From contig NZ_CP107932.1 of NCBI RefSeq assembly GCF_036032445.1, positions 5,582,501 to 5,646,500 on the forward strand: a stretch of DNA of 64,000 nucleotides, given 5' to 3'. Both the position numbers and the translations under genes were made by a program. Numbering within the stretch: the first letter of the stretch is position 1; every line of letters starts with the position of its first letter. The DNA is from Nocardia sp. NBC_00416 (GTDB lineage Bacteria > Actinomycetota > Actinomycetes > Mycobacteriales > Mycobacteriaceae). A model generated the notes under the pieces. It had not been told where the DNA came from. It made no database searches and saw nothing but the letters and a program-made list of their open reading frames with translations. Positions 6,197 to 56,999 of this stretch are shown here, one piece after another.

Positions 6197-6802
6197 GTGA
6201 CGACCACCGCTGTGGCGTGGCCATTGGTTCTGCTGATGGCGGCGACCTTGCTGATACCGCCTGTGCCGTCGGCGCTCGGCCGTCTTCGTGCCGGCTCGGT
6301 GCGGCGGCGATCCCCGGGGCGGAAAGTCCGAGGTACATCCGACCCGGTGGCAATCGCGACACTATTGGATCTGCTGGGGGCCTGCCTGCGAGCCGGGCTG
6401 CCGACAGCCGCCGCATTGCGCGCGGTGGTCCCCGCCGCCCCGGCCTCGCTGGGGGATCGGCTGCAGCGAGTGGCCGATCTGCTCACTTTGGGCGCCGATC
6501 CGGCTGTGGCGTGGGCCCCGGCCGATCCCCACCGGGCGGGAGCGCCCTCGGAGTTCGATGCGCTGGCCCGGCTGGCCCGGCGGTCGGCGCGCTCGGGATC
6601 TTCGCTGGCCGCCGCGATCGGCGAACTTGCCGATGAAGGCCGCACCCTGGTCGAGGAGGCGACGACGGCCCGGGCCGAACGTGCCGGCGTCCTGATCGGT
6701 GGGCCGCTGGGGCTGTGCTTCCTTCCGGCGTTCATCTGCCTGGGCATCGTTCCGGTGATCATCGGCCTGGCCGGTCGGGTACTCGGCGGGGCTCTGCTGT
6801 GA
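6197..6802 (+). CDS. TadC-like T2SSF membrane protein
   Basis: A 201-residue second platform protein. I chose GTG 6197 over the frame's upstream GTG 6092 because GGAGGAAGA ends directly before it, and because it puts the hydrophobic segment AVAWPLVLLMAATLLIPPVP at the N-terminus. The T2SSF core is LLDLLGACLRAGLPTAAALRAVV through SGSSLAAAIGELADEGRTLVEEA, followed by a C-terminal hairpin of two membrane spans. If translation started at 6092 it would overlap tadB by GTGA and add 35 residues. Position corresponds to Rv3657c. Confidence 0.82.
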   Translation: MTTTAVAWPLVLLMAATLLIPPVPSALGRLRAGSVRRRSPGRKVRGTSDPVAIATLLDLLGACLRAGLPTAAALRAVVPAAPASLGDRLQRVADLLTLGADPAVAWAPADPHRAGAPSEFDALARLARRSARSGSSLAAAIGELADEGRTLVEEATTARAERAGVLIGGPLGLCFLPAFICLGIVPVIIGLAGRVLGGALL

Positions 6803-53218: not shown

Positions 53219-53407
53219 TGCGTCCCTCCGCCTTCGCTGTGGCCTCAGCGGGCCGCATGTTCAGCCTCGAAGGAGGCTCGGTGTGCGGTATTCGCTCCGG
53301 TTTCCGCGGGCCGCATGGAGAGCTTCAAGAGATGTTCGGTGTTGCGATACGTCCGCCTTTGCTGCGGCCTTCGCGGACCGCGCATGTACAGCTTCGAAGG
53401 AGGCTCC
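53215..53407 (+). repeat. Three decayed copies of the mini-ORF element before panC
   Basis: Copy B (53215-53283) starts ATGATGCG over the DUF2520 stop like the intact copies but is one base short, so its frame breaks; read in the shifted frame it gives [13 protein letters not shown]. Copy C (about 53284-53335) keeps GFRGPHGEL. Copy D (53339-53407) reads [15 protein letters not shown], is open into panC and supplies its Shine-Dalgarno (GAAGGAGG). Together they fill the 190 bp between the two genes. Confidence 0.7.
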
Positions 53408-54382: not shown

Positions 54383-54546
54383 ACACCGTCGCAGCGCTCA
54401 CCTACCCGGTCCGCCCGCCGTCGCACTTCTTCCGGATGTGCCCAGAACCCCGCGGTGCCGGAAGCACCGCCATGAACACTGCACCCCGCGGCGTCGGAAG
54501 CGGCGCCGTGTACACCGAGAGGCGGCGGCGATGTTTCGCACCATGA
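54379..54546 (+). CDS. Possible 55-residue ORF with two 12-residue repeats, between panC and panD
   Basis: A frame starting at GTG 54379 overlaps the panC stop (GTGA), fills the gap and stops 13 bp inside panD. It contains a 36-bp tandem repeat (54447-54482 and 54483-54518) read in phase as [12 protein letters not shown] and [12 protein letters not shown]. No Shine-Dalgarno is needed if coupled. It may be a junk frame over a non-coding repeat; a related sequence, [10 protein letters not shown], can be read at 32958-32987 in an intergenic region, which argues for a nucleotide-level element. Confidence 0.3.
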
Positions 54547-55760: not shown

Positions 55761-55818
55761 TTTCGCGACTGTGACGGATTCCGCTGAGCCGAATGTGGCC
55801 GCATCGCGCCCGGCTTGC

Positions 55819-55824
55819 TAAGCT
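55819..55824 (+). promoter_or_regulatory. -10 element of the Cys-leader transcript
   Basis: TAAGCT ends 6 nt before GTG 55831, so transcription should start at or next to the G of that codon, giving a leaderless leader ORF. No clear -35 was found. Confidence 0.5.
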
Positions 55825-55830
55825 CGGCCT

Positions 55831-55872
55831 GTGCTGAATCGCATGCGTACCCAGGAGTGTTGTCGAGGCTGA
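55831..55872 (+). CDS. Cys-Cys leader peptide before the cysteine dioxygenase operon
   Basis: A 13-residue leaderless ORF, VLNRMRTQECCRG, with two adjacent TGT cysteine codons just before its end, placed 70 bp before the cysteine dioxygenase gene. Cysteine is rare in random high-GC frames, and its doubling here upstream of a cysteine-metabolising operon is the main evidence. Mycobacteria are known to use short leaderless ORFs with cysteine runs as cysteine-responsive attenuators. Confidence 0.65.
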   Translation: MLNRMRTQECCRG

Positions 55873-55921
55873 CGCCGCCTCGACCGTTCGAGGCATTCGT
55901 AAAGTCCTCGACCGTTTCTTT
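55862..55921 (+). promoter_or_regulatory. Alternating hairpins: candidate attenuator
   Basis: Four complementary segments follow one another: GTCGAGGC (55862-55869, over the second Cys codon and the next two codons), GCCTCGAC (55877-55884), TCGAGGC (55888-55894) and CCTCGA (55906-55911). 1:2, 2:3 and 3:4 pairings are all perfect over 6-8 bp and mutually exclusive. The 3:4 stem is followed by CCGTTTCTTT, terminator-like. Ribosome position on the Cys codons would choose between them. Confidence 0.6.
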
Positions 55922-55941
55922 AACTTCCTGGAGATGCGATC

Positions 55942-56568
55942 ATGCATTCGCCTGTTGCCTCGTCCGCAGTGCGCCCCTCGGCCCGGAACAATTCCGCCGC
56001 GATGGCGAATCCCATTCCCGATCGCCCGATCGCCCCGGCTCTGCCGACGCGGCTGCGTCCGGCGGATCTGCTCCGGCTCACCGACGAGGCCGGTGAGGAT
56101 GTTCTCTCCGGCCGGTACGACCATCTACTCCCCGCGGACGGGCTGTGGCCGACGGTCGACCGCTGGGCCACCCGGCTGGTCGCCGACGACGAGGTCGATG
56201 TCTGGCTGATCAGCTGGACTCCGGACAAATCCACGAAACTGCACGATCACGCGGGCTCGCTCGGTGCGCTCACCGTGCTCAGCGGCGCACTCGCCGAATA
56301 TCGCTGGAACGGCGCCGAACTACGCCACCGGGTGCTGGCCGCCGGTGACCAGGCCGCGTTCCCGATCGGCTGGGTGCACGACGTCGTGCGCGCCCCCGAC
56401 CGGATCGCGGTATCCGGGTCCGCCGATATCGGCCCGCTCGAGCCGACCCTCAGTGTGCATGCCTACTCGCCGCCGCTCACTGCCATGTCCTATTACGAGG
56501 TGACGGGACACGGCAGCCTGCGGCGTACTCACACCGCCCTCACCGACCAGCCCGAAGGTGATCTCTGA
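55942..56568 (+). CDS. Cysteine dioxygenase family protein
   Basis: A 208-residue cupin of the bacterial cysteine dioxygenase type. Metal ligands are in TKLHDHAGSLGALTVLSGALAEYRW (H-x-H) and in PIGWVHDVVRAP. It would oxidise cysteine to cysteine sulfinate. The first 35 residues are low complexity; Met 21 is an alternative start, but GGAG 8 nt before ATG 55942 supports the longer form. The stop overlaps the rhodanese start (TGATG). Confidence 0.9.
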   Translation: MHSPVASSAVRPSARNNSAAMANPIPDRPIAPALPTRLRPADLLRLTDEAGEDVLSGRYDHLLPADGLWPTVDRWATRLVADDEVDVWLISWTPDKSTKLHDHAGSLGALTVLSGALAEYRWNGAELRHRVLAAGDQAAFPIGWVHDVVRAPDRIAVSGSADIGPLEPTLSVHAYSPPLTAMSYYEVTGHGSLRRTHTALTDQPEGDL

Positions 56569-56999
56569 TGTCGCGACTGACCATTGATCAGATGCTCGAT
56601 CAGGCCCGCTCGCAGTTGCGGCGGATCCATCCCGTGGAACTGCCGGCCGCGCTCGCCCGGGGCGCGTTCCTGGTCGATATCCGGCCCGCGGCACAGCGCG
56701 CCAGGGAAGGGGCACTGCCCGGGGCGCTGGTCATCGAACGAAATGTCCTCGAGTGGCGGCTGGACCCCAGTAGTTCGGCGCGCCTGGCGCTGGCCACCGA
56801 CCACGATGTCGAATGGGTGGTGGTGTGCTCGGAGGGCTACACCTCCAGCCTGGCCGCGGCGTCGTTGCGTCAATTGGGCCTGCATCGGGCGACCGATCTG
56901 GTCGGCGGATATAAGGCACTGGAAGCGGCCGGTATGCGAACGGTCGCCACCGGCGCCGCTCACTTCACCAGGGAAGTTCGTTCGCTGGCTGTTCTCTGA
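56568..56999 (+). CDS. Rhodanese-like sulfurtransferase
   Basis: A 143-residue single rhodanese domain. The active-site loop is VVVCSEGYTSSLAAASLRQLG with the catalytic Cys, and AFLVDIRPAAQRAREGALPGALVIERNVLEWRLD is the N-terminal half. It moves sulfane sulfur between donors such as thiosulfate and acceptors. It is translationally coupled to the cysteine dioxygenase, so both respond to the leader upstream. GVA-type C-terminal end FTREVRSLAVL. Confidence 0.9.
   Translation: MSRLTIDQMLDQARSQLRRIHPVELPAALARGAFLVDIRPAAQRAREGALPGALVIERNVLEWRLDPSSSARLALATDHDVEWVVVCSEGYTSSLAAASLRQLGLHRATDLVGGYKALEAAGMRTVATGAAHFTREVRSLAVL

Follow-up and report, generated by a model that had tools for sequence, protein, structure and literature searches.

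A 64-kb stretch of Nocardia DNA, the window analyzed here, contains a short leaderless upstream open reading frame (uORF) with two adjacent Cys codons in front of a gene pair annotated as cysteine dioxygenase (CDO) and rhodanese. The annotation of this target predicts the opposite regulatory sign to that of a Cys-codon leader and can thereby be put to the test. Induction of a "cysteine dioxygenase" on exhaustion of cysteine would point to a thiol dioxygenase that scavenges sulfur; the alternative is that leaders with Cys codons can be inverted.

Elements and conservation of the leader

The elements of the locus, in window coordinates, are the following:

55816-55824, plus strand: extended -10 element TGCTAAGCT, recognized from the sequence and including TAAGCT (55819-55824)
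55831-55872, plus strand: leaderless 13-codon uORF encoding VLNRMRTQECCRG, reading frame maintained in 96 distinct leaders of Nocardia
55840-55848, plus strand: uORF codons 4 to 6, antisense to the region of the CDO start codon (conserved helix)
55851-55857, plus strand: CCAGGAG within uORF codons 7 to 9, antisense to a stretch overlapping the CDO Shine-Dalgarno sequence (pairing, duplex energies)
55858-55863, plus strand: Cys codons TGT TGT (codons 10 and 11), invariant in 96 leaders, proposed stall site
55863-55869, plus strand: segment 1, TCGAGGC, identical in 94 of 94 leaders; would fall within the footprint of a ribosome stalling at the Cys codons
55877-55883, plus strand: segment 2, GCCTCGA (1:2 and 2:3 pairing counts)
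55888-55894, plus strand: segment 3, TCGAGGC (pairing counts)
55906-55911, plus strand: segment 4, CCTCGA (3:4 and 1:4 pairing counts)
55915-55921, plus strand: T-rich TTTCTTT after segment 4, present in the window strain, not conserved
55924-55931, plus strand: CTTCCTGG, partner of CCAGGAG, overlapping the CDO Shine-Dalgarno sequence
55930-55933, plus strand: CDO Shine-Dalgarno sequence GGAG, 8 nt before ATG (leader comparison)
55942-56568, plus strand: CDO_I-family thiol dioxygenase (Pfam PF05995, 47.2 bits, cut-off 23)
56568-56999, plus strand: single-domain rhodanese (Pfam PF00581, 41.8 bits)

TAAGCT, the GTG 6 nt further on and the 13-codon ORF with adjacent TGT TGT, from which the preliminary description had started, were all present where it had placed them. 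The uORF reads GTG CTG AAT CGC ATG CGT ACC CAG GAG TGT TGT CGA GGC TGA; 6 nt separate TGCTAAGCT from its GTG, and 69 nt separate its end from the CDO_I-rhodanese pair. TGNTANNNT is followed after 4 to 9 nt by RTG in 95 of the 96 distinct Nocardia leaders, and transcription is expected to start at the GTG at 55831.

When both strands of the 64 kb were scanned, a leaderless short ORF with clustered Cys codons was matched only once. The leader core CAGGAGTGTTGTCGAGGCTRA, with up to two mismatches allowed, was present in all 128 Nocardia genomes searched, in one copy per genome except for one incomplete genome, and a reversed control of the core pattern gave no match in these 128 genomes. The genome of the window strain contains one exact leader site; matches with one or two mismatches numbered 46, versus 33 for the reversed control. 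The preliminary description had proposed comparing the Cys codons across Nocardia, and both TGT codons as well as the uORF frame proved to be retained in all 96 distinct leaders. ORF-internal insertions or deletions were multiples of three (+12 in L142 and +15 in L180, read by eye), and stop codons were shifted by whole codons in L016, L146, and L150 (L146 read by eye); the start codons of L142, L146, and L180 were also read by eye, the script having used a fixed start offset. For the window leader as free RNA, the folding z score against dinucleotide shuffles was -4.4, and an Rfam scan found no family at the locus. The leader observation is real and far beyond chance.

The rhodanese start codon overlaps the CDO stop codon, and the same gene pair occurs in relatives. 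By sequence, the two-gene operon is flanked by coaX, encoding type III pantothenate kinase, and a lysS-like gene. The closest named relatives of the CDO protein are those of N. rhamnosiphila, N. grenadensis, N. fusca, N. sienata, and N. carnea. On the N. farcinica record, which is 2.66 Mb long and labelled "plasmid 2", the leader locus lies at NZ_LN868939.1 323973-325143 (L289); this record looks like part of a chromosome. Other observations in the window concern separate loci. Immediately before a panC-like gene, at 53233-53406, lie three degenerate direct repeats with spacings of 58 and 69 nt; CGAAGGAGGCTC is present in two of the three, which suggests a repetition of the Shine-Dalgarno region. 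A panD-like gene is preceded, at 54436-54507, by a tandem direct repeat of two 36-nt units that are 75% alike and each begin with ATG. A 6C RNA (RF01066), a cis element of actinobacteria, was found on the plus strand at 2780-2854 with 70.3 bits, above the gathering score.

Pairing of the uORF with the CDO start region and proposed mechanism

Codons 3 to 9 of the uORF are antisense to the Shine-Dalgarno sequence and the start codon of CDO. This had been missed in the preliminary description, as the complement of codons 7 to 9 (55924-55931) falls just outside the interval it covered (55831-55921). For 96 species, the duplex between uORF and start region had a mean energy of -23.1 kcal/mol versus -11.4 kcal/mol for shuffled targets, and the duplex with CDO codons further in had -9.2 kcal/mol. 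Among 83 distinct rows, 89% of the cells were paired in the start-codon helix (12 to 70% when slid) and 95% in the CCAGGAG helix (38 to 60% when slid); for both strands overall, 91.7% of the cells were standard pairs, compared to 28 to 58% on sliding one strand. The distance from GGAG to the start codon was 8 nt in 93 of 96 leaders and 9 nt in three. Several changes, all read by eye, look compensatory: CCAGGAT in the uORF of L142 stands opposite ATCCTGG, in L151 the CCAGGAG strand is altered and CGTATGCGCG stands opposite CGCGCATGCG, and a GTG start codon, present in two species, is opposite C instead of T. In Antrihabitans, GCATGAG is still opposite CTCATGC, and segments 3 and 4 are apparently missing (also read by eye).

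Covariation of the start-region pairs was weak, with three double-change cells in 83 distinct rows, which is not above shuffles, and the case for pairing therefore rests on complementarity that has been retained, to which common descent and the constraint of the coding sequence may have contributed in part. Covariation of single bases as a proof of this pairing was rejected, the double changes being too few. Since the uORF is antisense to the CDO start region, the control point is most likely the initiation of CDO translation.

Short Cys ORFs were also found before CDO in other groups, where the genus names of some relatives are guessed from their relationship and their sequence. The peptides in Rhodococcus-like genera of this family include MTTGYQECCRA, MERFGFCECCRP, and others like them, and a distant family (f34) has MRCCC, MQSCR, or HIDLKRTCTAICR at the same place. 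Cys-Cys is present in the Rhodococcus-like genera and in most f34 leaders; the leaders of another distant family, f31, carry no more than a single Cys close to the end. MRCCC, HIDLKRTCTAICR, MERFGFCECCRP, and VLNRMRTQECCRG have in common only Cys and mostly Arg. The layouts differ as well: in f34 an anti-Shine-Dalgarno sequence directly follows MRCCC, whereas in Nocardia the uORF body is antisense to the start region. Short ORFs for peptides ending in HLFDECCR (L271) and DEFDEGCMCG (L270) were noted upstream of CDO homologues that belong to other families of this order.

The influence of ribosomes on the leader was calculated as the energy for opening the region from the Shine-Dalgarno sequence through the start codon of CDO. 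In 29 species the opening energy was 15.2 kcal/mol for the free RNA and 9.0 kcal/mol with Cys10 in the A site, with a drop in the same direction in all 29, and a ribosome at the stop codon caused partial opening (11.0 kcal/mol). For 93 leaders the values were 14.7 (free) and 8.9 kcal/mol (stalled), and the assumed footprint size, checked for 40 of the 93, was without influence. When codons 4 to 9 of the uORF were shuffled, sequestration was lost (9.2 kcal/mol). The measure used first, the unpaired probability of the four Shine-Dalgarno bases, pointed in the opposite direction (0.30 free versus 0.06 stalled), because, with the long duplex lost, the Shine-Dalgarno sequence is taken up by a weak local hairpin. 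The energy for opening the entire start region, considered the more relevant quantity, was chosen after this result. The f34 leaders, despite their other layout, gave the same sign (13 to 16 kcal/mol free, 4.5 to 8 kcal/mol stalled), and most Rhodococcus-like leaders showed no start-region sequestration in the same calculation. In the model, any stalled or dense ribosome within codons 4 to 12 opens the start region, and specificity therefore rests on the Cys codons. Stalling is thus predicted to turn CDO translation on, which is the sign that the preliminary description had derived for a ribosome stalled on these codons.

From the conserved pairing and the folding energies we consider it likely that the leader is a cysteine-sensing translational attenuator and that the gene pair is induced by cysteine or sulfur limitation, most likely for sulfur supply. 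Transcription would start at the GTG and the leaderless uORF would be translated. As long as cysteinyl-tRNA is plentiful, ribosomes would pass and leave, and the uORF would pair with the CDO start region, the two strands being brought together by the intervening helices, either 1:2 with 3:4 or 1:4 with 2:3; translation of CDO-rhodanese would then be poor. If cysteinyl-tRNA runs short, a ribosome would wait at codons 10 and 11 and cover both the antisense strand and segment 1, so that segment 2 would pair with segment 3 and the CDO start would be free. Under cysteine or sulfur limitation the pair would consequently be induced, CDO would oxidize an organic thiol to a sulfinate yielding sulfite, and the rhodanese would serve as its sulfurtransferase partner.

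Two other readings of the leader have to be weighed against translational attenuation. Classical transcription attenuation, with 3:4 as intrinsic terminator and 2:3 as antiterminator, predicts the identical sign and can draw on the four segments named in the preliminary description, whose mutually exclusive helices are conserved in 94 leaders. Helices 1:2 and 2:3 are each fully paired in 93 of these, and to this extent the described arrangement was confirmed; 3:4, however, was fully paired in only 70 and 1:4 in 64, the helices involving segment 4 being the least conserved. The T-rich tail fared similarly, as TTTCTTT does follow segment 4 in the window strain but is largely confined to this strain and its close relatives; TTTT within 14 nt of segment 4 occurred in one species only (L124). 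A terminator search of the leader returned no terminator-like sites, and Antrihabitans, which seems to be without segments 3 and 4, keeps the uORF and the start-codon pairing. An intrinsic terminator at the 3:4 hairpin, as the preliminary description had assumed, was therefore rejected, and we regard control by termination as very improbable.

Slightly less probable still is an arrest peptide of the TnaC kind, for which excess cysteine would stall the ribosome on the C-terminal QECCRG, open the CDO start and induce disposal. In its favor are the sign, which would be the one expected of a catabolic enzyme, the strong conservation of QECCRG in Nocardia, and the opening of the start region in the model by any stall near codons 10 to 12. 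The residue conservation in Nocardia can, however, be explained by the nucleotides needed for RNA pairing, and across families only the Cys codons persist, with MRCCC and HIDLKRTCTAICR at the same site in f34, where a peptide of five residues would be very short for such a role. Cys leaders of the window genome, moreover, head sulfate-reduction genes.

Sulfur supply versus cysteine disposal

A Cys leader ORF encoding MRASGVRLVARRHVDYKRVCSACCLPGSAR precedes sirA-cysH-cysD-cysN in the window genome, and a leaderless one encoding VQNHHELMLTRRRTVDLCRLGGCCCLCR precedes the gene of a DUF4395-like membrane protein (L108 position 2932, minus strand); therefore, in this genome such leaders head sulfur-acquisition genes. 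Neither the sirA nor the DUF4395 leader, both of which are longer, showed clear sequestration in the folding test used above. The ORF of MRASGVRLVARRHVDYKRVCSACCLPGSAR is unannotated and lies on the minus strand at about 6510-6760 of locus L107 (G000:C1:6698000-6712000), its stop codon being 131 nt from the sirA start with no simple sequestration. The DUF4395-like gene is located near a two-domain rhodanese gene, and its leader resembles the mycobacterial cysA2 leader.

In two genomes of f31 the CDO-rhodanese pair adjoins SfnB (464 and 434 bits, cut-off 430.9), which alone among the f31 neighbors passes its curated cut-off. SsuE-, SsuA-, and MetQ-like proteins are also neighbors in the first of these genomes, an alkanesulfonate-monooxygenase-like protein in the second, and a third genome has an SsuA-type gene near the pair. 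In the genomes of Nocardia, of the Rhodococcus-like genera, and of f34, no obvious sulfur genes adjoin the pair. The CDO promoter region of f31 (L046, L047, L048, and L053) contains a conserved box, around TAGGGAATATGGTTAACT, to which a sulfur regulator probably binds; this box is situated between CDO and the sfnB-like gene in L046 and L047.

Published expression data point both ways. In Gordonia NB4-1Y a cysteine dioxygenase, which may or may not be the ortholog of the CDO studied here, was more highly expressed on sulfonates than on MgSO4, as were a methionine transporter component and sulfurtransferases (PMC7661421). Two rhodanese-type proteins of R. qingshengii IGTS8 fall under sulfur limitation (PMC8557817), which counts against a role in supply.

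The CDO protein has the iron ligands and SHY-type motifs of its family, with H101, H103, H146, H173, Y175, S176, and P177 invariant. The same cupin iron ligands and H-x-Y-S-P are found in B. subtilis CDO (3eqe/4qm8), Azotobacter 3MDO (6xb9), and the group of 8qfl. The 8qfl structures, which we take to be an ergothioneine dioxygenase, have relatives of 61 to 63% identity in other genomes that form a separate subfamily, and this CDO shares only 37% identity with 8qfl; 8qfl was therefore rejected as an ortholog that could identify the enzyme. The predicted structure (AlphaFold) had a pLDDT of 43.5, too low for use.

A leader acting as proposed could also control a true L-cysteine dioxygenase that has another purpose, such as redox or sulfite/thiosulfate balance in cysteine-limited cells, or that is subject to a brake only. 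CDO_I family membership and the conserved motifs agree with this, and the closest solved structures were deposited as cysteine dioxygenases. The Arg that would bind the substrate carboxylate is ambiguous, as that of B. subtilis CDO aligns between the invariant R74 and R78, and the position of the f31 pair among sulfonate and methionine uptake genes fits scavenging. We hold a true cysteine dioxygenase to be unlikely. Thus, of the two explanations between which the preliminary description had wavered, sulfur supply gained support from the other Cys leaders and the f31 neighbors, and nothing was found that would invert the sign. The pair most likely serves sulfur supply rather than cysteine disposal, and the annotation "cysteine dioxygenase" may be misleading. 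Opinion is evenly balanced on a wider reading, in which the actinobacterial CDO-rhodanese pair would be a cysteine-starvation-induced module for organothiol scavenging, not cysteine disposal, under Cys-codon leaders with differing RNA layouts in several families. If this is true, the regulatory sign re-labels an enzyme family.

Comparison with known leaders

With attenuators of the trp/ilvB type, such as that of M. tuberculosis ilvB1 (PMC13236596), the Nocardia leader shares the regulatory codons in a leader peptide and the segments that pair in mutually exclusive ways, but it is without an intrinsic terminator. It also resembles the leaders predicted in 2005 for actinobacterial cys operons, in which runs of Cys lie close to the stop codon and a conserved terminator is missing (PMC1262725). 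Those leaders have other targets and no RNA structure was found for them, whereas the Nocardia leader has a conserved antisense to the start region.

The closest likeness is to the mycobacterial poly-Cys leaders, which likewise begin with a leaderless RTG, have their Cys codons clustered toward the end of a short ORF, and stand before sulfur genes. According to Canestrari 2020, stalled ribosomes reportedly free a sequestered ribosome-binding site there. Mycobacterial leaderless poly-cysteine short-ORF attenuators include the cysA2, Rv0485, and nirA leaders (PMC4633059), and translational control with cysteine-dependent ribosome stalling has been described for mycobacterial Cys leaders (PMC9031893; PMC13236596), which are also the subject of Canestrari 2020 (cited by PMC9094748 and by PMC9031893). 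In contrast to these, the Nocardia leader is compact, has only two Cys codons and a thiol dioxygenase-rhodanese target, and its uORF body is itself the antisense to the Shine-Dalgarno sequence and start codon. The kinship suggested in the preliminary description is borne out by the leaderless RTG, the clustered Cys codons and the computed sequestration of the start, and by every sequence criterion that could be tested the Nocardia leader appears to belong with the mycobacterial attenuators. Cysteine-responsive leaderless leaders would thereby be extended from Mycobacterium to all Nocardia searched and to other actinobacterial families, in a leader that is small, nearly invariant and suited to reporter work.
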